IMG/VR virus record: IMGVR_UViG_3300036978_000177
Span: 1 to 32,605 of that record
Reading direction: 5' to 3' (one strand)
Source of the DNA: a virus
DNA length: 32,605 nucleotides
Shown here: positions 4,688 to 32,605 of the stretch, one piece after another
Layout of the letters: each line of letters starts with the position of its first letter
How positions within the stretch are numbered: position 1 is the first letter of the stretch
Notes under the pieces: generated by a model
What the model was told of the DNA's origin: nothing
Database searches by the model: none
The model's input: the letters and a program-made list of their open reading frames with translations, nothing else
Made by a program: the position numbers and the translations under genes

Positions 4688-5140
4688 ATGGCATGGACTA
4701 TCCTCACATATTCTGGACTCAAGGACAGACTCTCATCTGAGGAGTTGTCGAGACTGTTGGCTGAATGCCCAACACCAGAGGAGAAGGCACAAGAGATCCT
4801 GACCTCAGTGGCACAAGAGGTTGTGTCCAGAGTAAATGCCGGACGCAGAAAGCGTGGACTGCCACCACTGGTCAATACTGGTCTATATATCCCCTACGGT
4901 GCCAGCCGTCACTCATACGTGCTTGCTCGCAGAGAACTCACAGACTCATACCCGGCACTGGCAGAGTTCAACGGTGAGGATCGCAAAGACTCGGTCCAAG
5001 AAGCAAACAATTATCTTGAGGCACTCTCTGACAACAATGCTGACAGTGATGACACAGGTGCTTCTGCATTTGTGGTGTCATCCAGTGGATCCTTCCGCAT
5101 CAGTGGCAGCACACTAATGGACTTCGCAGAATCACCATGA
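4688..5140 (+). CDS. Head-tail connector-like protein
   Basis: The product is 150 residues. Its N-terminal 100 residues follow the layout of Mu gp36/HK97 gp6-type connectors: a short N-terminal helix (YSGLKDRLSSEELSRLL), a helix with AQEIL...VAQEVVSRVNAGRR, then a Pro-rich turn (RGLPPLVNTGLYIP) and a helix containing SYVLARREL, with an acidic helix EDRKDSVQEANNYLEAL. Such proteins form a ring under the portal. The Ser-rich C-terminus (about 115-150) is not typical. It follows the capsid block and overlaps the next gene by ATGA, as connector and tail terminator genes usually do. Confidence 0.6.
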   Translation: MAWTILTYSGLKDRLSSEELSRLLAECPTPEEKAQEILTSVAQEVVSRVNAGRRKRGLPPLVNTGLYIPYGASRHSYVLARRELTDSYPALAEFNGEDRKDSVQEANNYLEALSDNNADSDDTGASAFVVSSSGSFRISGSTLMDFAESP

Positions 5141-5628
5141 CCAACAGCATCATCAGACAGATTGTGGAGAGCATAGCAGCAACACTCACTGCTCATGCTT
5201 ACTTTCGCACATTGCCTGTGATCCCTGTCATCGTTGAGGATCACCGTGACATCGATCAGCAGATTGAGAAGGCGATGAACTCATGTGGTGCCTTTGTGCT
5301 GGTCAACTTCGCCAACTCCAACACAGACACACCTGACACACCCGGACCATACATGGACCAGTGTGAGTTTGTCTGCACAGTGGCTGAGATTCCCAGTGTG
5401 TGGAGGCAGCAAGTTGGCAATCAATCAAAGCCATCATGCACAGAGATTGCTGAGGCAGTTTCTCGGATCCTTCACCATCACACACCACTGGACAAAGAGG
5501 GTGATCCACTCACCGGTGGTGTCCTAATTTTCGAGGGCATGGCACAAGATGCCATCCCACCAATGCTTCAACAAATCATCAGATTCAATTGTCCAGTAGG
5601 ACTTCACAACACAACTCCAACACGATAG
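5137..5628 (+). CDS. Tail terminator-like protein (gp37 position)
   Basis: The product is 163 residues. It begins with an amphipathic helix (IIRQIVESIAATLTAH), then a beta strand region (IPVIVEDHRDIDQQIEKAM), and CEFVCTVAEIP, in the manner of minor tail or tail-terminator proteins that cap the tail tube and join it to the head. No strict family motif can be given. It is coupled by ATGA to the connector gene and lies one gene before the tube protein, the usual place for the tail terminator in siphoviruses. Confidence rests mainly on synteny. Confidence 0.5.
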   Translation: MTNSIIRQIVESIAATLTAHAYFRTLPVIPVIVEDHRDIDQQIEKAMNSCGAFVLVNFANSNTDTPDTPGPYMDQCEFVCTVAEIPSVWRQQVGNQSKPSCTEIAEAVSRILHHHTPLDKEGDPLTGGVLIFEGMAQDAIPPMLQQIIRFNCPVGLHNTTPTR

Positions 5629-20796: not shown

Positions 20797-21417
20797 TTAG
20801 AAGTTCTCAACCTCGATCTCCTCTTCTTCCATCTCCTCATCCTCGAATGCATCAACTGTTACTTTAGCAGCACCGAATGGTTCACCCTTCCGCAGATATT
20901 GGATTGCCTCAATGCTGGCAGAGATGCCCTTTTTGCCTTCATACTCGTAAGCAAAGATGTTGAGAATGGCATTGACGTAGTCACCATTGTTAGGCATCCC
21001 AGTTGATGCTGGCAGTGGTTGACGCTTCTGGTCCACAATCAACACACCGTTGGGTGCATCTGCCACCTTTGTCCCGGCACTGAAAAACATGGTGCTGGCA
21101 TCATATCCCTCGTAGTAGTCACCATCCTCGTTGACCTTAGGACCACGACTGCCAACTTGCTGGTCTGCTTTGCTGTATGCATACATCTCCAGCTTGCCGG
21201 GTGTTTTCCCCCACTTGTCTTTGCAGATGGCAGCAAGAATGACCTTTTCAAAGTCTGTGCTTGGCACACTGACTTTCTTCTCATCGATAGTTGCCTCAAC
21301 AGTAGAGTCAGCAGAGCAGATGCCGGTGAAGGTGTATTTTGGATCACCAGTCTTTGGGGTGTATGGTTTTCTCAAGTTGGAGAAACTGAGACGGACATTT
21401 TTGATTTTGACTTGCAT
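20797..21417 (-). CDS. DUF2815 ssDNA-binding protein
   Basis: The product is 206 residues. It starts MQVKIKNVRLSFSNLRKPYT and contains KVILAAICKDKWGKTPG, YYEGYDASTMFFSAGTKVAD, and NGDYVNAILNIFAYEYEGKK, all typical of the DUF2815 family found beside family A polymerases and DUF2800 nucleases in phages and related to the gp2.5-type OB-fold SSBs. The C-terminus is strongly acidic (DEEMEEEEIEVENF), as single-stranded DNA-binding proteins need for partner contacts. It lies downstream of a terminator repeat, so it may need a promoter of its own; the 21418-21470 leader has only weak candidates. Confidence 0.85.
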   Translation of the reverse strand: MQVKIKNVRLSFSNLRKPYTPKTGDPKYTFTGICSADSTVEATIDEKKVSVPSTDFEKVILAAICKDKWGKTPGKLEMYAYSKADQQVGSRGPKVNEDGDYYEGYDASTMFFSAGTKVADAPNGVLIVDQKRQPLPASTGMPNNGDYVNAILNIFAYEYEGKKGISASIEAIQYLRKGEPFGAAKVTVDAFEDEEMEEEEIEVENF

Positions 21418-21477
21418 ATGTTTGGTATGTTTAATTTTGGTTAATTTGACTGGGTGACAACGTGCCACCCTTCGCCC

Positions 21478-21508
21478 AGAAAACCCCACCCAATTCAATG
21501 GGTGAGGT
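21478..21508 (-). terminator. Intrinsic terminator, repeat copy 1
   Basis: On the minus strand ACCTCACCCA (21508-21499) pairs with TGGGTGGGGT (21492-21483), 10 base pairs with one wobble and a 6-base loop, followed by TTTCT. It lies 26 bases after the stop of the 114-residue gene. A 37-base sequence including this hairpin (21473-21509) is identical to one at 24235-24271. Confidence 0.8.
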
Positions 21509-21534
21509 GTGTCTGTGGGTGGGTGAGTGGTGGT

Positions 21535-21879
21535 TTATGCTTTTGCAAACTGCTTCTTGTATCGTGCAGAGGTTGATTTTTTGCGCTTGTCAATTGCATC
21601 TTGTAGTTCACCAACTGTGCGATAATACTCTGGGTATTGGCTTGCACCAAACCAATTGCCATCTCTGGTGCAGGTCATTGTCACTTTGAACCACACACCA
21701 ATTTGTTCTTCTGTTTTCCAATAGTAACCCTTTGCATCTTCTGGTGCCACTGTGAATTCTGCTGTTGATATGGCAATACACAGACCAATTGATCTGCCCT
21801 TGTTGTCAAGGACACCAAAGTCGATTTGCTCAGTAGTGGCAGGAGTGATTTGTTTGATTGTAACTTTTATTTCTTTCAT
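21535..21879 (-). CDS. Stand-alone small gene, cassette B
   Basis: The product is 114 residues. It starts MKEIKVTIKQITPATTEQID, has a central GRSIGLCIAISTAEFTVAPE and a YYWKTEEQIGVWFKVTMTCT segment, and ends in a basic helix (DAIDKRKKSTSARYKKQFAK). I recognise no family. The gene has its own promoter-like repeat 19 bases upstream and its own terminator, both copied at the 24.2-24.6 kb cassette, which makes it an independent unit set into the early operon. Such isolated early genes in phages often encode host-takeover or anti-defence functions; that is an inference. Confidence 0.75.
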   Translation of the reverse strand: MKEIKVTIKQITPATTEQIDFGVLDNKGRSIGLCIAISTAEFTVAPEDAKGYYWKTEEQIGVWFKVTMTCTRDGNWFGASQYPEYYRTVGELQDAIDKRKKSTSARYKKQFAKA

Positions 21880-21897
21880 GGTTCTGTATGTTTGTTT

Positions 21898-21961
21898 TGG
21901 TTCGGTGCCGTGTGGCGGGGACACACTAGCATACACTTTTGTATACTGTCCAGATTTATTT
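21898..21961 (-). promoter_or_regulatory. Promoter/operator-like repeat, copy B
   Basis: These 64 bases match 24511-24574 at about 53 of 64 positions and lie at the same distance from a start codon. Read on the minus strand the order is TGGACA, an interrupted dyad GTATAC-N6-GTATGC, the words CTAGTGTG, then CCCCGCC-ACACGGC with a small GCC/GGC hairpin. Spacing from TGGACA to TATGCT is 13, too short for a standard sigma-70 promoter, so a phage-specific factor or an operator over a degenerate promoter is likely. Confidence 0.55.
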
Positions 21962-22240
21962 TCAACTATTTTTTACAGGCAAATACTCGGCAAAAACCCA
22001 TGTCCATCTGATGACAGTTCCATTTTTGGCGCAGTCTTGGATGATAAATGGCTCACTCATTTTTGCCAGTGTTTCAATTTGTATTAGGCTTGATGCCCCA
22101 CCTCGGACGCATTCCACCATTTGTTCGGTGTTGCCATCGTCGGTCAGCCTATGTGGGCATTGACTTCCACACGCCTTGAGTTTTTCTGTGATGTCACCGG
22201 CATACGTTACGATGCAGTTCATGATTACTTTATTCTTCAT
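21962..22240 (-). CDS. Small cysteine-containing protein
   Basis: The product is 92 residues, with MKNKVIMNCIVTYAGDITEK at the start and further cysteines in KACGSQCPHR, MVECVRGG and IQDCAKN. The C-x-x-x-C followed by later Cys could bind a metal, but the spacing fits no named family. It is coupled by ATGA to the end of the DUF2800 gene. The AGGAGG seven bases before its start is part of the DUF2800 coding sequence (Gln-Glu-Asp codons), yet it may work as a ribosome site. Its stop lies one base from the cassette B promoter repeat. Confidence 0.6.
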   Translation of the reverse strand: MKNKVIMNCIVTYAGDITEKLKACGSQCPHRLTDDGNTEQMVECVRGGASSLIQIETLAKMSEPFIIQDCAKNGTVIRWTWVFAEYLPVKNS

Positions 22241-23475
22241 AAACAATCCTCCTGTGTGATCTCATCATCAAAGTTGCCAGCACCGGTGACTCTTGCGGGT
22301 CTTGGATCTGACTCCAGCACCAGTTTTGGAGATCCGTCTGACTGACTTACTAGTTGGTCCCAACGTCCCAAGAATCTCTTATTCTGTTTGTCAAGAGGTG
22401 TGCCTTGTTTCTTCAGCACCTTCTCAATCTGTGCCGGTGACAACAGTTTCTTCGGTGCATATTTTTCTGCTGCTGGGATCTTACGCAGCAACTTGTCAAC
22501 CTCTGACTCACTGCTCCACTTTCTGTTGCCCTTGCCACCATCGATGGTCTTCAGACCACAGATGCTTTGCCCTGCTTCGATCAACTCCAGTGTGTTCTCA
22601 TTCAACTCATCAAAGAATTTGCTGATCTCTTTTGAATTCATTGCGATCCGCACACGCACAGCATCAGTGATCTCCACCTTGGCAAACTGCTCCTTGTCAA
22701 TCTCACCCTTGAGTGGGTTGATCTCATCTGGCAGACCATCAAACATGGCACCCACTCTTGTGGCACACACCCGGCGAGCATCACAGAACCGACAAGCATC
22801 GTAAGATGGTGTCAACATCGATGCATCTGCTGCTTTGCTGAGTTTGTATGAGTCAAAGATCCGTTCGCCAATCTCAACCATCAACTCACCCAGTGTGGTG
22901 GTCCACACTTCGGCTGTGCCATCAAATGAGTGATGGCGCGGCTGGTAGATTGCCATGGTCACCGGTGTGGTCTTGGTGAACTTGTGACCCTGTGATTGCA
23001 GCAACTCCACCAGACTGATGGCATAAATTGCCAACTGATCATTGCCCTCTGCACTGACTTTCTCACCCACTCCGTATTTCAAATCAAGGATGTTGATGCC
23101 CTTGTCACCCACCACAGCAAAGTCAATGGTGCCATGCACTGTCTTGTTGTAGTAGAGTGGCACTCTTTGCTCAGTGTATACTGTGGCACCACCGTGCATC
23201 TGTTCTGCAAGTTCATCTGCATAATCGATGTATCCACCAAGATGCTCCAGAAATGACTCTGGGATCTCGGACCGGACTATGTCACCCTTGAGACAGCGAT
23301 CTGCCCAGTCGTGTGCCTCTGTGCCTTCAAGACTGTAGGCTGTGTCAACCTTGGCAGGGATCATCCCTGCTGCCTTGCACTGGGCGATGTATGCCACAGA
23401 TCCGGCACATCCTCTCCACTGCTTGGCAGCAGATGCTCCCCAAGCGTAGTGGGTATTTTCTGGTGGTGTGTTCAT
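22237..23475 (-). CDS. DUF2800 nuclease (Cas4/AddB-like, Fe-S)
   Basis: The product is 412 residues. It shows the PD-(D/E)xK exonuclease pattern of the DUF2800 family: LEGTEAHDWAD (His55), HGTIDFAVVGD (Asp118), NILDLKYG (Asp131, Lys133) and EGNDQLAIYA (Gln147). An N-terminal cysteine (WRGCAGS, Cys23) and a C-terminal YDACRFCDARRVC cluster (Cys228, Cys231, Cys237) are the four ligands expected for a 4Fe-4S cluster of the Cas4/AddB type. In phages this enzyme travels with DUF2815 and a family A polymerase. It probably processes DNA ends during replication or recombination. Its start overlaps the stop of the small membrane protein gene. Confidence 0.9.
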   Translation of the reverse strand: MNTPPENTHYAWGASAAKQWRGCAGSVAYIAQCKAAGMIPAKVDTAYSLEGTEAHDWADRCLKGDIVRSEIPESFLEHLGGYIDYADELAEQMHGGATVYTEQRVPLYYNKTVHGTIDFAVVGDKGINILDLKYGVGEKVSAEGNDQLAIYAISLVELLQSQGHKFTKTTPVTMAIYQPRHHSFDGTAEVWTTTLGELMVEIGERIFDSYKLSKAADASMLTPSYDACRFCDARRVCATRVGAMFDGLPDEINPLKGEIDKEQFAKVEITDAVRVRIAMNSKEISKFFDELNENTLELIEAGQSICGLKTIDGGKGNRKWSSESEVDKLLRKIPAAEKYAPKKLLSPAQIEKVLKKQGTPLDKQNKRFLGRWDQLVSQSDGSPKLVLESDPRPARVTGAGNFDDEITQEDCL

Positions 23476-23648
23476 AGGTTGATGATCATGTTAAGAAGAA
23501 TGCCGGTGAGGACTCCAAAGGCATAGAGTGCCACAATGCCAATCACAGGCACAGTGCGGTCATATCGACGCAGACGATCATATCTGCGGTGGTTGTTGTT
23601 GATCGGGTGGCGTTCGATGCCCAGCAGTTTTTTAGTTTCTTGTGTCAT
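23472..23648 (-). CDS. Small membrane protein upstream of DUF2800
   Basis: The product is 58 residues. The N-terminal half is basic (IERHPINNNHRRYDRLRRYD, about 11-30) and the C-terminal half is one hydrophobic helix (VPVIGIVALYAFGVLTGILL, about 33-52). It would be a single-pass inner membrane protein with a positively charged cytoplasmic part, able to bind nucleic acid or lipid head groups. Its stop overlaps the DUF2800 start (ATGA), which supports translation. A structured sequence lies 28 bases upstream of its start. A role in anchoring replication at the membrane is a guess. Confidence 0.6.
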   Translation of the reverse strand: MTQETKKLLGIERHPINNNHRRYDRLRRYDRTVPVIGIVALYAFGVLTGILLNMIINL

Positions 23649-23676
23649 AGTGTTTGGTTCTGTTTGGTAAAGTTGA

Positions 23677-23759
23677 TTCTCTCAGATCTGTCATGTTTTG
23701 AAGTCATCGCTGACAGGTATTGTTTTATCCTTGGTCACCACCCAAGCGATCTGAGAGAA
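23677..23759 (-). other. Structured leader with 12 bp closing stem
   Basis: TTCTCTCAGATC (23677-23688) and its perfect complement (23748-23759) enclose 59 bases. On the minus-strand transcript the inside can fold into CTTGG-N7-CCAAG and into GTCA-GCGA-TGAC, a hairpin with a GNRA-type tetraloop; a competing pairing CTGTCA/TGACAG is possible. This multi-branched layout lies between the stop of the 145-residue gene and the start of the small membrane protein, a place for a cis-acting RNA. It matches no riboswitch or ribozyme that I recognise. Confidence 0.5.
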
Positions 23760-23766
23760 AAGTGTT

Positions 23767-24204
23767 TTATTTGACCATCTCAAGTGCAGTGGTCAGTGCC
23801 ATCTCAATGGCAGGATAGAATGATTTGTCACAGGTGCTGATCTTCTGTCCAGCAATCCCTGCACCGTCGAGTAGGTCACGCAGTGCAGCCGGGCTGTTGA
23901 AGGCGATGAATGACTTGGCAAGATTGGTGATTGACTCCACAGTTGGTGCTTTGACCACCAGTGTTGGTGTCTCCTCTTCCTCATCCTCCAGAGTGATCTC
24001 TGGTGTGATGATCGATGTGATCGGTGCTGGTGGATCCACTGGAGCCGGTGGTGTGACCTTCTCCTTCTTGACCTTCGGTGTCGGTGCTGGATCCACTGGA
24101 GCCGGTGCCGTGATCGGTGCGGTGGTGAGTTGGTTTATGTCAATGCCTCGCTCGAGGATTGAGCAGAGTCTGTCTAGTGCTGGGATGCTGATTGTGATGT
24201 TCAT
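23767..24204 (-). CDS. Unknown protein with Pro-rich linker
   Basis: The product is 145 residues. An N-terminal helix (IPALDRLCSILERGIDINQL) is followed by a repetitive Pro/Ala/Val/Lys linker (two copies of PAPVDP with KVKKEKV between), an acidic stretch (LEDEEEETP), and a C-terminal helical domain (SITNLAKSFIAFNSPAALRD, then STCDKSFYPAIEMALTTAL). The C-terminal part resembles the helix-loop-helix tails seen on phage proteins of DNA-replication clusters, in which a L-A-x-x-x-A-x-x-x-L region precedes a conserved Y-x-x-x-x-x-A-L. I know no function. It is the first gene after terminator copy 2. Confidence 0.6.
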   Translation of the reverse strand: MNITISIPALDRLCSILERGIDINQLTTAPITAPAPVDPAPTPKVKKEKVTPPAPVDPPAPITSIITPEITLEDEEEETPTLVVKAPTVESITNLAKSFIAFNSPAALRDLLDGAGIAGQKISTCDKSFYPAIEMALTTALEMVK

Positions 24205-24239
24205 AGTTTGGTAGTTGTAAATGGTTAGATGTTACGCCC

Positions 24240-24270
24240 AGAAAACCCCACCCAATTCAATGGGTGAGGT
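24240..24270 (-). terminator. Intrinsic terminator, repeat copy 2
   Basis: This is the same hairpin as at 21478-21508: ACCTCACCCA (24270-24261) pairs with TGGGTGGGGT (24254-24245), loop of 6, then TTTTC. It lies 19 bases after the stop of the 66-residue gene. Thirty-seven bases (24235-24271) are identical to copy 1. Confidence 0.8.
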
Positions 24271-24289
24271 GATGCTGTGGGTGGTTGGA

Positions 24290-24490
24290 TCAATCTGCGA
24301 TCATTGACCACTCTGCTGCACTTGGGAAAGCTTGATCTTGATCACCATGCATTAGCGCACCATTATATTTGCCAATCTCACATGACTCAAGTCCTTCATA
24401 GTTGCTTTTGCTCCAGTTGTTTTCCCAGTCAGCGTGTTTTGCTGCGATGTTTGCATTAACTATTTCTACGATTTGTTGAAGTGATTTCAT
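24290..24490 (-). CDS. Stand-alone small acidic gene, cassette A
   Basis: The product is 66 residues, MKSLQQIVEIVNANIAAKHA at the start and LMHGDQDQAFPSAAEWSMIA near the end, with 10 acidic and 4 basic residues. I recognise no family. It is unrelated in sequence to the 114-residue gene of cassette B but sits between the same upstream repeat (20 bases before its start) and the same terminator. The size, acidity and isolated transcription unit are those expected of phage inhibitors of host enzymes or of defence systems; this is an inference and not shown by any motif. Confidence 0.75.
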   Translation of the reverse strand: MKSLQQIVEIVNANIAAKHADWENNWSKSNYEGLESCEIGKYNGALMHGDQDQAFPSAAEWSMIAD

Positions 24491-24510
24491 ATTGTTTGTG
24501 TGGTTCGATT

Positions 24511-24574
24511 TGGTTCAGTGCCGTCCGGCGGGGATAGACTAGCATACTTTTTTGTATATCGTCAACATTTATTT
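24511..24574 (-). promoter_or_regulatory. Promoter/operator-like repeat, copy A
   Basis: This copy reads on the minus strand TTGACG, then an interrupted dyad ATATAC-N6-GTATGC, CTAGTCTA, then CCCCGCC-GGACGGC. It lies between the primase gene and the 66-residue gene. The TTGACG and the TATGCT are 13 bases apart, as in copy B. The conserved part extends into the transcribed leader (GCC/GGC mini-hairpin, then GAACCAAA), suggesting control both of transcription and of the mRNA. Confidence 0.55.
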
Positions 24575-24619
24575 GCGTATTTTTTCACATTTGTTGAAAA
24601 TAGTTCTACAGCCTATATA

Positions 24620-26971
24620 CTAGAAAGGATCCATGCAGTCGTCAATTGTCACTTCTTCACCTTTTTTTGGCATGATCACCCAGTAAAACGCACCATTTTT
24701 CTTCTTCGGTGAGATCATCGATGACTCATCACCTGAGTAGATCACACGCTCAGAATGTGTTTTTGTTAGATGTTGGAGTTGTGAAATCAGCACCTTGGGT
24801 GATGGGCAGAATCTGCTGAACTGCATCTGTGAGTTGCGTGTGCCAACGTCACTCAGGATCTCAAACAAAGCACCCACCGTGCCGGTCCATGCTTCGGGCT
24901 TTTCATCCTCCTCAAACAACTGGCAGAACAGTCTGCCATGTGCAGCACCATCGATGCGCTCAATCAGTGAATGCTCTGGACTGCCCTCATTTATCAGATC
25001 CAGCACACTTGGGTTGTGATAGGACAAAGTGGGAAATCGTTTGGCAGGGTCAACGATGTGTGCGGGGATGATGAACTCCTCCAGCAAGAAGTGCAAGAAT
25101 GCTGGCAACTCACTCAGGATCTTCTGCTGTGTTGGTTCATACCACCCGGCAGTGGTATTGTCGATCAGACCACCAACCATGCTCTGTGCTTTGAGCAAGA
25201 TGATCTTGTCCTTGATGCCCTCGTTCATCTGCGGCAGAGTGCTGATCGATGAGTTCTCCATGTTCATCAGTCGCACAAATCTCCACCATGGTTTGACTGG
25301 GATCTTGTCGGCAAACTTCTGGTGATAGTCACCACCGGTGCCAACTGTGAGTGACTTGATCTGTTCGCCCAGTTTTGATCGGCTCTTGAAGTCTGGCAGC
25401 AGCACACTGGTGTCATCCAAGAACAGCAACTCACACTGGAACAGGTCAGAGTTGAATGCTGCACCATACTCTGAGAACATACTGTCGGCATTGGTGCTGC
25501 GTCCACCCAGTAGGTGTGGCAAGATGTTGTCGAGCAGCAGAGTCTTGCCACTGTTGACCTCACCCAAGATGTGCAAGAACTGACAAGGTGAGAACTTTGA
25601 TTGACGCTTGCCATCATTGCGAAATGCCTTGGCACTGGCACTGGTCCATCCGTAGAACACATCAAGTTGATGTGGTGAGTGGTCAAACATGTGTGTGAGT
25701 AGTTTTTTGATGGTCCCCCATTCACCCTTCCGTGGTTTGATCACTGTGGGTGAACGCATCACCAGATAGTCATATCCATTCTCTGAATGCACACCGGCAC
25801 ACCGTCCACTGGCACCTTGCATGATGGCATCAATTGGGTGGTGCATCTCCACTCCAGCGATGAAGGTGTCCACCGGTGACTGACCCTCACCAGTCATCTT
25901 GATGCCTCGCATCCCCACATCGATCAACTGCCTTGCCATCGATCTGCCAGACAGTGAGATCCACTTCCCACTGATCGACTCTGTGTAATACTTCCCACCA
26001 TGATAATAATACAGCACATCCTTGCAAGTGGTGATCGATGCCTCAAACCCAGCCACATCCCATTTGCCCTTGGCAATCGTCATTGGGTAGTTGTCACCCT
26101 TCGGATCAAAATAGACCACACGCTGGGCAGATCTGCCATCATCCGCTGCACTCACGTTGGGCATCCTTGCCACCTGTGAGCGCACTGCCATTTGTTTGTC
26201 TGCACCATATAGACAGGCAACGGTGAAGATGGCATCCACCTCTGCCAGTGATGCTTGTCGTGCGTCAAACCAAAAGTGCAAAGACTTGCCACCGGTGTCC
26301 ACCACCATCTTCAGAGGCACATACTTTGAGAGACTCATGGCAAAGGTGGAGAACTGCTGGACCACCTTGGCATCTGTGCTGTCCATCTCCAGCAGCATGT
26401 ATGGTCTGCTGGCTACATTGGCATTGCACCGGGTGCTGAGTTTCTGTCCACCGTTCTTCTGATCGCGGATCCATGCACCTTCTATTGATTTGAAGGTTGA
26501 CGGGTTGAGAAATTTGAATGCATCAAGTGCTGGGTGTGGGTAGAGGTTGACGATATCCTCGACCACCACCAAGGTGCCAGACTGTTTGCTGATTTCTTGG
26601 ATTCCTATGATCTCATCCTGTAGGAAAAGGTTTTTGATGATGCTGCTGGTCTTGATGCCAGTCCTGTGTGGCGATGCCTCCACAATGGTGGAGAGTGGTG
26701 TGCAGTTGAGCCGGTGCAGCAGCTTCTCATCTGCGTCTGGCATGGTCACCTTGTCATCATCATCTGGCACATCAGTGGACCAGATAAGGTCAACCACACG
26801 TTGTGTGGCTGTGTGGTGGTCTGGTCTGGTGGAGTCATAGATTGACCTCAGATGCTCAAGTGTTTCTTCTTTGGATGCACCAGCGTTCTGGCATCTACGT
26901 GCTGCGGCTGGTAGTCCAGCATTGTGTCCATCTCCTGCCGGTGGCAGAGTTATATTTTCGATTTTGCTCAT
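24620..26971 (-). CDS. Primase-helicase (AEP primase plus SF3 helicase)
   Basis: The product is 783 residues. An N-terminal helical region (about 15-65, AAARRCQNAGASKEETLEHL) is of the PriCT type. The middle has the archaeo-eukaryotic primase features LLEMDSTDA (Asp197) and VVDTGGKSLHFWFD (His232). The C-terminal part is a superfamily 3 helicase with Walker A HILGEVNSGKTLLL (470-477) and Walker B CELLFLDDTSV (515-520). Such proteins unwind and prime at a phage origin, so this is the most likely origin-recognition or origin-opening enzyme here. It is the first leftward gene after the large non-coding region with inverted repeats. A sigma-70-like promoter lies just upstream. Confidence 0.9.
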   Translation of the reverse strand: MSKIENITLPPAGDGHNAGLPAAARRCQNAGASKEETLEHLRSIYDSTRPDHHTATQRVVDLIWSTDVPDDDDKVTMPDADEKLLHRLNCTPLSTIVEASPHRTGIKTSSIIKNLFLQDEIIGIQEISKQSGTLVVVEDIVNLYPHPALDAFKFLNPSTFKSIEGAWIRDQKNGGQKLSTRCNANVASRPYMLLEMDSTDAKVVQQFSTFAMSLSKYVPLKMVVDTGGKSLHFWFDARQASLAEVDAIFTVACLYGADKQMAVRSQVARMPNVSAADDGRSAQRVVYFDPKGDNYPMTIAKGKWDVAGFEASITTCKDVLYYYHGGKYYTESISGKWISLSGRSMARQLIDVGMRGIKMTGEGQSPVDTFIAGVEMHHPIDAIMQGASGRCAGVHSENGYDYLVMRSPTVIKPRKGEWGTIKKLLTHMFDHSPHQLDVFYGWTSASAKAFRNDGKRQSKFSPCQFLHILGEVNSGKTLLLDNILPHLLGGRSTNADSMFSEYGAAFNSDLFQCELLFLDDTSVLLPDFKSRSKLGEQIKSLTVGTGGDYHQKFADKIPVKPWWRFVRLMNMENSSISTLPQMNEGIKDKIILLKAQSMVGGLIDNTTAGWYEPTQQKILSELPAFLHFLLEEFIIPAHIVDPAKRFPTLSYHNPSVLDLINEGSPEHSLIERIDGAAHGRLFCQLFEEDEKPEAWTGTVGALFEILSDVGTRNSQMQFSRFCPSPKVLISQLQHLTKTHSERVIYSGDESSMISPKKKNGAFYWVIMPKKGEEVTIDDCMDPF

Positions 26972-27189: not shown

Positions 27190-27240
27190 AAACAGCACCC
27201 GAAAAAAGTTGTGTTGCATGATTTGTGTTTCGTGCTGTTT
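27190..27240. repeat. 9 bp inverted repeat
   Basis: AAACAGCAC (27190-27198) and GTGCTGTTT (27232-27240) are perfect complements 33 bases apart. Around it the words TGCAGA and TGCAAA occur several times (27120-27190). It lies between the leftward promoter and the large nested repeat and may belong to the same control or origin region. Confidence 0.45.
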
Positions 27241-27271
27241 TTTGCACAAATAAGAGAGAAACCTATATGTG

Positions 27272-27572
27272 CCAATGGTTTTTTCTTAGGGCAGCAAAAT
27301 ATGCCTGCCCTACCCACTGCCCCCCAAAAAGCCATTGGTGCATATGGGTTTGCGGGGATTTAGGGCAGAGGGCAGTGATTTGTACTTCTATTAGTGGAGG
27401 GTAAAAATATAGTATATATTGGGTTTTTTCATGTGTTCTTCATGTTATCTCTTTATATATGGGTACAGAAGTGCTGCCCTCTGCCCTTTTCTGTTAGATT
27501 TGGCAAAATTGCTATACATACCAATGACTTTTTGAAGGGCAGTGGGTAGGGCAGTGAAAATTCCACTGCCCT
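27272..27572. repeat. Nested inverted repeats, candidate replication origin
   Basis: CTGCCCTACCCACTGCCC (27305-27322) returns as a perfect complement at 27537-27554; with its flank the arms are 34 bp (27305-27338 against 27521-27554, 31 matches). Inside are a 14 bp perfect pair (27362-27375 with 27474-27487) and a 6 bp pair (27384-27389 with 27467-27472), and at the ends two local hairpins (27287-27312 and 27548-27572). The unit GGGCAG/CTGCCC occurs ten times, five in each orientation, in doublets spaced 7 or 12 bp. The centre (about 27,390-27,460) is AT-rich with TATATATT. No gene is present. The layout resembles an origin with protein-binding iterons and an unwinding region, next to the primase-helicase gene. 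Confidence 0.7.
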
Positions 27573-27786
27573 TTAGATATCTTAACTAATTTTTGACCAT
27601 CTAACGGAAAATTTGAGGTGCAATGCTGGCACCGGACCAGTGGCAGAAATATACAAATTAGTGCAGAAAAAGATTGCACTTTTGTCAAAACTGATCCACT
27701 CTCACCGCAGCACCACTGTGTGACCAGACTCAAATAATTTTGGGTTGAATGGTTGAGATCTGGCACACAGGGGGCAAAAATAAAAA
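27573..27786. other. Non-coding stretch before the regulator
   Basis: No credible gene is seen here. A small hairpin, AGTGCA (27660-27665) with TGCACT (27675-27680) followed by TTTTG, could be a weak rightward terminator. The rest is A/T-rich sequence without clear repeats. Confidence 0.4.
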
Positions 27787-27815
27787 TTGACAATGTGGGA
27801 AAATTAAGATAATAC
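27787..27815 (+). promoter_or_regulatory. Sigma-70-type promoter of the regulator gene
   Basis: TTGACA (27787-27792) and TAATAC (27810-27815) are 17 bases apart, a near-consensus promoter. The start codon of the regulator gene is at 27823, only 7 bases after the -10 box, so transcription is expected to begin at or next to the A of ATG and give a leaderless message. Confidence 0.75.
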
Positions 27816-27822
27816 CACACCC

Positions 27823-28055
27823 ATGGACAGATCCATTGATCACATCGCCAAACTTGAGGTTGGCATGAAAGAGGCAAGAGTGCTGGCAAGGGTCAGTGGC
27901 ATCTCTGCAAGGGCGATTGCTCAAGATATGAATGACACCAGAGTCAATGTGACCAACTCACTCTATGTCCTATCTCTGAAAGGTTTTGTGGTGGCTGATA
28001 GGTCCACAGCACCTGCACGATATATTCTCACACCACTTGGCAAGGAGGCACAGAG

Positions 28056-28068: not shown

Positions 28069-29734
<1,666 letters not shown>

Positions 29735-29750
<16 letters not shown>

Positions 29751-29899
29751 AAATGATAGACAACATCTATGATGATGTTGCCCTTGGTAAATATGATTCA
29801 GTGCAAGAAGCAGTGGATGACCTCATCTATTATGGTGAGGATCCAATGGTGGCACTCAACAGCGTGTTGGCAATGGACACAGTAGATGTGATAGATTGA
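29735..29899 (+). CDS. Small acidic protein behind the MuF-peptidase gene
   Basis: The product is 54 residues (MAKNLKMIDNIYDDVALGKY at the start), with 12 acidic and 3 basic residues and a helical pattern (DSVQEAVDDLIYYGEDP). It overlaps the end of the MuF gene by 16 bases in another frame and ends 4 bases before the small terminase gene. It has no recognised family. The position directly after a possible effector makes an inhibitor or immunity role thinkable; it may equally be a minor head or terminase accessory. Confidence 0.6.
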
Positions 29900-29903
29900 A
29901 CAT

Positions 29904-31863: not shown

Positions 31864-32605
31864 ATGACGAAAGACGAGAAAAAAGGAGTAGTCACTCCAC
31901 TGCCAGCATCATATCGCACACAGGACTTTGACCTTGCCAATGTCACACCAGAACAGGTGCGGTCAATCCTCCGCAATGTTCGCACCGGCAGACTTGAAGA
32001 TCAAGACAGACTCTTCCGTCTGATGCTCGACTCATGGAGCAGATTGAGAAAGTGTTTGAATGAGGTCAGTGGAGCAGTGGCATCTCTGCCCATCCAGATC
32101 TCACCAGCAATCAGAGAAGGTGAAGAAGAAGCAACACCAGAGGCACTCAGGATCCATGAGGTGGTTGAACGTGCGCTGGAGTCATATGCACCCAGACCAG
32201 CATACTTAGAACTGGATGGCATGGGGATGATCAAGGCAATGGTGGACGCATATGCCAAGGGCATCAGTGTGGTGGAGATCCTGTGGCATGTAGAGAATGG
32301 TGTGGTGTCCCCTCGGTGCTTCTGTCCGGTCCCTGCAAAATATCTTGCATATCCCCAAGACTCAAATCAGATAGACAGACTGATGGTGTCACCTGATGGT
32401 GTGGCAATGGGTAATCTCCAAGACTTTCCAGCAGATAAATTCTTGATTGGCATCTGGCAACAAGGTGGCATTCATCCCATCCACTGCGGCAATCTCAGAG
32501 CATTGACCAAGCAGTGGCTCGGTGCCATCTATGGCATGGGTTGGTTGATGCAGTATGCACAGTTGTTTGGCATCCCATGGCGGCACATTGAGACAGACGG
32601 CAGCG
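31864..32605 (+). CDS. Mu gp29-like portal protein, N-terminal part
   Basis: The first 247 codons of the portal gene lie here; the rest is at 2-1024 across the circular join. The sequence shows VRSILRNVRTGRLEDQDRLF, a L-N-E-V-S-G-A-V-A-S-L-P region and AKGISVVEILWHVENGV with the KGIS-x-x-E-x-x-W pattern of DUF935 portals. The start ATG at 31864 was chosen because it is the first in the frame after the terminase stop and gives the usual N-terminal length. The leader has no Shine-Dalgarno. Confidence 0.9.
   Translation, partial: MTKDEKKGVVTPLPASYRTQDFDLANVTPEQVRSILRNVRTGRLEDQDRLFRLMLDSWSRLRKCLNEVSGAVASLPIQISPAIREGEEEATPEALRIHEVVERALESYAPRPAYLELDGMGMIKAMVDAYAKGISVVEILWHVENGVVSPRCFCPVPAKYLAYPQDSNQIDRLMVSPDGVAMGNLQDFPADKFLIGIWQQGGIHPIHCGNLRALTKQWLGAIYGMGWLMQYAQLFGIPWRHIETDGS
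32472..32605. repeat. Terminal overlap, right copy
   Basis: This copy matches 1-134 at 133 of 134 positions. Trimming it gives the 32,471 bp circle. The one difference (a at 32479, g at 8) may be a strain polymorphism or a read error. Confidence 0.95.

Follow-up and report, generated by a model that had tools for sequence, protein, structure and literature searches.

Probable reusable expression sockets for small genes in the replication operon of a 32-kb phage lineage

Introduction

The mobile regulatory cassettes known as PeSL (promoter early stem-loop) were reportedly described by Arbiol et al. in 2010 and Comeau et al. in 2014, and in phage T4 they unite terminator and promoter in one composite intergenic element. 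Two publications describe repeated early promoter and stem-loop signals between small hypervariable genes of T4-type phages, and report that these signals mediate gene shuffling between related phages (PMC4503421, PMC3950731). In the haloarchaeal virus HGTV-1, a repeated promoter-like motif of archaeal TATA type, accompanied by an inverted repeat, precedes the majority of left-hand open reading frames (ORFs), and shuffling as in T4-like phages was suggested (PMC3950731). Here, we present two promoter–gene–terminator cassettes found in an IMG/VR virus record (IMGVR_UViG_3300036978_000177), the whole 32,605 nucleotides (nt) of which are hereafter called the window. The cassettes occupy site A, between the genes of a DUF5906 protein and a 145-amino acid (aa) protein, and site B, between the genes of an exonuclease and a single-stranded DNA-binding protein (SSB); a third position, site C, lies before a helicase gene in one relative. 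We consider it likely that these are reusable expression sockets at fixed sites, in which small genes are swapped by homologous recombination in the flanks.

As in PeSL, an early-type predicted promoter and a stem-loop terminator are repeated around variable small genes. Unlike in PeSL, the promoter stands before the cargo and the terminator after it, no promoter copy follows any terminator, there are two fixed sites at either of which the same genes are found, and the 32-kilobase (kb) phage is unrelated to T4. HGTV-1 offers a similar combination of promoter-like motif and inverted repeat before ORFs, but no fixed socket pair is described there. The likeness to phage morons lies in a small accessory gene that has a predicted promoter and terminator of its own and a lower GC content than most core genes, and that is absent from some relatives (site B of one of them is empty). 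In contrast to morons, the promoter here seems to belong to the site while the cargo is replaced beneath it, only one of the homologous blocks described below fits a travelling unit, and no integrase was found, hence no sign of lysogeny or prophage expression. Anti-CRISPR and other anti-defence loci are likewise made of small unrelated ORFans at a fixed position behind what is here probably an early promoter, but searches of Pfam, NCBIfam, PADLOC and the PDB gave no match of any cargo to a known inhibitor family. From integron-like cassettes the sites differ in that no site-specific recombinase was found in the five records available, some of which are fragments. The sockets work like T4 PeSL and resemble morons, yet are a member of neither as defined, because there is no composite element, the phage is not of T4 type and the promoter is not carried along with the gene.

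Shared flanks around unrelated genes

Both cassettes lie on the minus strand within the replication operon (the early operon of the original prediction), at 24235-24585 (site A) and 21473-21973 (site B), and are about 80% identical to each other in promoter and leader. A repeat search of the window recovered the two repeat pairs on which that prediction was founded. The upstream pair (21890-21972 and 24503-24585) is 83 nt long and 78% identical, with a 65-column core at the 83% identity originally given, and the downstream pair (21473-21525 and 24235-24287) is 53 nt long and 92% identical, its first 37 nt being the same at both sites (BLAST of site A against site B: E = 1e-17 and 9e-19). Leaving aside the overlap of the contig ends, no other exact direct repeat in the window is as long as these 37 nt, and a scan of the window for part of the upstream motif gave two matches versus none in 100 shuffles. 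Enclosed by these flanks are a 66-aa ORF at site A (24290-24490) and the gene of a 114-aa protein at site B (21535-21879), which show no similarity to each other.

The upstream repeats, each aligned with the eight other copies from the five phages, carry predicted promoters of the sigma70 type by consensus match. At site A (promoter and leader 24503-24585, minus strand), a -35 box TTGACG (24560-24565) is separated by an 18-nt spacer bearing a dyad (24542-24559) from a -10 box TAGTCT (24536-24541) preceded by TG. At site B (21890-21973, minus strand), the corresponding elements are TGGACA (21947-21952), an 18-nt spacer (21929-21946) and TAGTGT (21923-21928). The leaders found 3' of the -10 boxes (CCCCGCCggacGGCACTGAACCAA at site A and CCCCGCCacacGGCACCGAACCAA at site B) are rich in AACCAA and contain a small CCCGCCnnnnGGC hairpin, which by itself is no more stable than shuffles. 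The claim that the repeats keep the same distances from start and stop holds on the 5' side, where about 42 nt separate leader motif and ATG at both sites, but not on the 3' side, where stop codon and terminator are 18 nt apart at one site and 25 nt at the other. The 37-nt repeat itself (24235-24271 at site A and 21473-21509 at site B, minus strand) forms a 10-bp hairpin with TTTT after it (-24 kcal/mol versus -13 in shuffles, z -4.4), as expected for the intrinsic terminator that had been proposed.

The spacer dyad reads GCATACacttttGTATAC at site B (21929-21946, plus strand reading). GCATAC-N6-GTATGC or a near match is found in the promoter copies of the window, of two relatives (G001 and G002) and of site A in a third (G004), and in the site A copies of G002 and G004 the half-sites are perfect while the N6 differs. 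Within the window, the only near-intact copies are those in the two cassette promoters. The dyad is not recognisable in the promoters of the fourth relative (G003) or at site B of G004. We read it as the operator of a putative regulator.

The same sites in four relatives

A search by exact pattern through 2.9 million viral contigs (IMG/VR) found the terminator in four other contigs, G001 (3300011339_000778), G002 (3300027212_000019), G003 (3300032232_001560) and G004 (3300008266_000335), with exonucleases 98, 94, 74 and 77% identical, respectively, to that of the window. A leader-motif scan and a second terminator scan returned the same four contigs and no others. With a hidden Markov model (HMM) of the upstream region, nine clear copies were seen in the five genomes (two each in the window, G002, G003 and G004, and one in G001); since the model was built from these same nine copies, the informative point is that no tenth was found. 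In all, nine promoter copies and nine terminator copies are present around nine unrelated gene families. The flank search that the original prediction had called for therefore turned up four other phages with different genes enclosed, rather than flanks confined to the window and always holding the same genes.

Across sites A, B and C, eight cassettes carry cargo between promoter and terminator, one further loaded site lacks the terminator and another site is empty. Site A holds a 66-aa gene in the window, 54 aa in G001, a run of four (61, 81, 65 and 73 aa) in G002, 67 aa in G003 and 116 aa in G004, so that the 66-aa ORF, for which no relatives were found, is replaced by an unrelated gene or genes in each of the other phages. 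Site B holds a 114-aa gene in the window and G002 and a 70-aa gene in G004; in G003 it is empty, with the terminator kept but promoter and gene lacking. Site C, seen in G003 only, consists of a promoter and a 66-aa gene. Two families occupy different sites in different phages. The 114-aa family is at site B in the window and G002 but at site A in G004 (82% identical to the window copy), and a 70/73-aa family is the last gene of site A in G002 and the occupant of site B in G004 (90% identical). Otherwise, the cargo is mutually unrelated, which gives the nine families inside the sites.

Where homology ends and what moves

BLAST alignments of pairs of cassettes located at the same site but carrying different genes place the edges of homology within a few bases, ending at the start codon and returning 3-15 nt before the terminator. 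The site A copies of the window and G001 are 95% identical through the start codon region and share nothing more until 6 nt before the terminator. Homology between the window and G003 at this site reaches the base before the ATG and is found again from 14 bases before the terminator, and between G004 and G002 it extends a few bases past the ATG and resumes 3 bases before the terminator. At site B, homology between the window and G004 stops at about the ATG and returns 15 bases ahead of the terminator. The homology of the window's site A with its relatives thus reaches the ATG and ends there. A different picture emerges when the gene is the same and the site is not, since site B of the window and site A of G004, which share the 114-aa gene, align as a single block running from 94 nt upstream of the ATG to exactly the final base of the 37-nt repeat, past which no homology was reported. 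This combination of families that switch sites and breakpoints that fall at the flanks supports the idea, put forward in the original prediction, of a reusable expression site served by recombination in its flanks.

The promoter cores are more alike above unrelated genes at the same site (92% between site A of the window and G001, 86% between site A of G002 and G004) than above the shared 114-aa gene at different sites (72% for site B of the window or G002 versus site A of G004). Because core identity follows the site and not the gene, the promoter appears to belong mostly to the site, with genes exchanged beneath it. This qualifies the comparison with morons made at the outset, which is apt in that each cassette has its own predicted promoter and terminator, but not in that the promoter stays behind. 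In G003, the promoters of sites A and C are most similar to each other (88%), as if copied within that genome. The leader at site A of G004 has the site A form up to ACCACACA (GGCACTGAACCAAATC..GAACCACACA) and then the site B form GAACC beside the ATG, and looks like a hybrid of the two types, a reading made by eye over a short stretch.

Two further comparisons bear on recent exchange. Among 23 gene pairs compared between G002 and G004, the 114-aa gene has the lowest synonymous divergence (dS), at 0.32 against 0.8-1.0 for most others, and between the window and G004 its dS is third lowest of 23. As the two values that come next (0.33 and 0.40) are likewise those of small genes, for which dS is noisy, this is supporting rather than decisive evidence that the gene may have moved after G002 and G004 diverged, in a recent exchange. 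In the alignment of the window with G003 (73% identity), 3 of 9,023 37-nt windows are fully identical, and the identical runs of at least 37 nt are all at cassette terminators.

A model for gene replacement and its alternatives

These observations suggest a model in which the phage lineage keeps two fixed expression sites for accessory genes (three in one phage) inside its replication operon, each with a sigma70-type promoter and a leader, followed by a single small gene or a few small genes in a row and then by a strong intrinsic terminator. Homologous recombination, either with another phage or from one site to the other within the same phage, would replace the genes. One crossover would fall in the promoter/leader just 5' of the start codon and a second one in the near-invariant terminator, and the incoming gene would thereby land under the existing promoter and ahead of the existing terminator. 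We infer homologous recombination because no tyrosine recombinase, serine recombinase or HNH gene was detected in the five records (Phage_integrase and Resolvase among the profiles), and because site B lies between the genes of an exonuclease and a Gp2.5-like annealing protein; the phage's own pair of proteins could plausibly carry out the reaction. The cassette promoters would fire early, and the spacer dyad may be recognised by a dimeric regulator.

Several points weigh against this model. It is drawn from five related contigs, some of them fragments, with counts that are small and partly non-independent. No terminator was seen at site C of G003, and at site B of G001, which leaves the contig, both the promoter-like sequence and the gene seem to be different. 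In G002, the 73-aa gene comes last in its run of four, and its 5' junction with site B of G004 falls inside the run and not at the promoter. Promoter firing and termination are predictions from consensus and folding, and the recombination proteins are implicated from annotation and position alone. Finally, terminators that work would force read-through, antitermination or unseen promoters for the downstream genes of the operon.

Some of the same observations could be explained if the cassettes were classical morons, whole promoter–gene–terminator units inserted by illegitimate recombination, whose flanks became alike by copying from site to site. The block common to site B of the window and site A of G004, which runs from the promoter through the terminator and stops exactly there, is what would be expected of such a unit, and so are the resemblance of site C in G003 to the site A copy of the same phage (88% in the promoter) and the lack of promoter and gene at site B of G003. 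However, morons would not account for promoters that cluster by site while the genes beneath them change, for same-site breakpoints at the ATG instead of upstream of the promoter, or for a terminator retained without a gene in G003, and we regard this explanation as unlikely. Ordinary mosaicism, that is, random uptake of ORFans by replication operons with flanks that are common regulatory parts reused by duplication, is in keeping with variable ORFans outside the flanks. Besides the nine families, site B has three variable ORFs that lie outside the conserved promoter or lack it. Among them is a 92-aa ORF (21962-22240, minus strand) between the exonuclease gene and promoter B of the window, outside the shared flanks, which has an unrelated 82-aa ORF in its place in G002 and nothing in G003 and G004. 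Yet both multi-site gene families are always between the same flanks and every same-site comparison made puts the edges of homology at the flanks, so that mosaicism is already disfavoured and seems very improbable.

Two other possibilities turn on the hairpin. In an integron-like site-specific system, the hyperconserved 37-nt hairpin would be the site at which an enzyme of phage or host, so far unrecognised, carries out recombination. Conservation of its loop, and of most of the CTGGGCG that lies downstream, goes far past the needs of a terminator, and the moved block stops at the last base of the repeat. We nevertheless give this system hardly any credence, in view of the absence of detected tyrosine or serine recombinases from the five records and of 5' junctions that lie at the start codon, where there is no matching site, and considering that homogenisation via homologous recombination accounts equally for the 37-nt identity. 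The other possibility is, in our opinion, improbable. It holds that the lineage possesses a dedicated cargo-exchange device, with a near-invariant 37-nt hairpin that would serve both as terminator and as recombination target of the phage's own annealing machinery, and a shared dyad operator that would let one regulator control any cargo.

The cargo genes

The ratio of nonsynonymous to synonymous divergence (dN/dS) of the two shared families is 0.11-0.32, and therefore both are coding genes under selection; the 114-aa gene (0.13-0.32) is, by this measure, under purifying selection. GC content at third codon positions is 0.24-0.48 for cargo inside the sites versus 0.54-0.59 in four of the five core genes tested, the SSB gene (0.38) being the exception. 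An AlphaFold model of the 114-aa protein has a predicted local distance difference test (pLDDT) score of 90 and shows beta strands and a C-terminal helix, while that of the 66-aa protein is of low confidence (pLDDT 66).

No cargo protein gave a significant match in Pfam, NCBIfam, PADLOC or the PDB. The 114-aa protein and the 67-aa protein of G003 match PHROGs of uncharacterised function, and the former has weak relatives among small ORFs of a Sinorhizobium and a Caulobacter phage. Fold matches of its model in BFVD are two uncharacterised phage proteins (E 3.5e-6 and 4.7e-4), and among solved structures nothing reliable was found (best Foldseek E 0.16; best VIA Z 6.1, to DCAF15). A resemblance to an anti-Cas complex (7eni, Z 4.7) was rejected as it did not rise above unrelated rows, and PADLOC rows for the 65-aa protein of G002 (best E 0.006) were dismissed as chance. 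The cargo probably consists of host-interaction or accessory early genes, which is a weak inference, and the anti-defence or host-takeover role proposed for it originally is plausible from position and pattern, but only a guess.

Genomic context

The window ends overlap by 134 nt, of which 133 are identical (1-134 and 32472-32605), which makes it probable that the contig represents a circular genome in full, of about 32.47 kb. The minus-strand replication operon encodes a 783-aa DUF5906 primase/helicase-like protein (24620-26971), which is the left core neighbour of site A and is 79-98% identical in the other four phages, the 145-aa protein to the right of site A (23767-24204; present in all five phages), a 58-aa protein, the DUF2800/PD-(D/E)XK exonuclease to the left of site B (22237-23475; phrog_69), which is a candidate recombination nuclease, the Enc34-like/Gp2.5-like ssDNA-binding and annealing protein to its right (20797-21418; phrog_112), a family A DNA polymerase (Pol A) and an SNF2-type helicase. 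In the SSB leader, directly after the site B terminator, a second hairpin (GGGTGGCA cgt TGTCACCC; 21445-21472) is kept in four phages with one compensatory pair and is a possible translational operator of SSB.

Searches with the DUF5906 protein and the exonuclease for additional members of the group found none, only exonucleases with 26-36% identity, and nhmmer with the promoter/leader profile detected no copy in the loci of these exonucleases. One such locus (L032, exonuclease 36% identical) has a 42-nt repeat (98%) at 4768-4809 and 5210-5251, upstream of the exonuclease gene, serving as leader to a 137-aa gene and again to the gene that follows; one gene between near-identical leaders is possibly a looser form of the gene-swap arrangement.

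The large terminase is closest to those of Akkermansia phages (39-44% identity), which suggests, by terminase similarity alone, that the host probably belongs to the Verrucomicrobiota. Two scans of bacterial genome collections revealed no host or prophage relative, a DNA search against named phages gave no match, and neither did Rfam and tRNA scans of the window. Elsewhere in the window, an AT-rich and CTGCCC-rich stretch (27200-28000) with a 35-nt inverted repeat (27305-27339 and 27520-27554, 91%), which relatives also have, looks like a replication origin or control region. Five 24-nt tandem repeats (28938-29057) are present within a gene encoding a 564-aa minor-head-like protein, and 28942-29903 has no DNA alignment to the closest relatives.

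Concluding remarks

Two sockets with the same genes at either, one site left empty and breakpoints located to within a few bases make this lineage an unusually clear example, by comparison of genomes, of the way in which small phages exchange accessory genes that probably act early. The flanks would also provide a handle for gathering the whole cargo pool of the group from metagenomes, by looking for CCCGCCNNNNGGCACYGAACCAA followed by CACCTCACCCNNNNNNNNGGGTGGGGTTTT within 2 kb. Such a collection would be a homology-independent route to candidate anti-defence genes of phages that probably infect Verrucomicrobiota.

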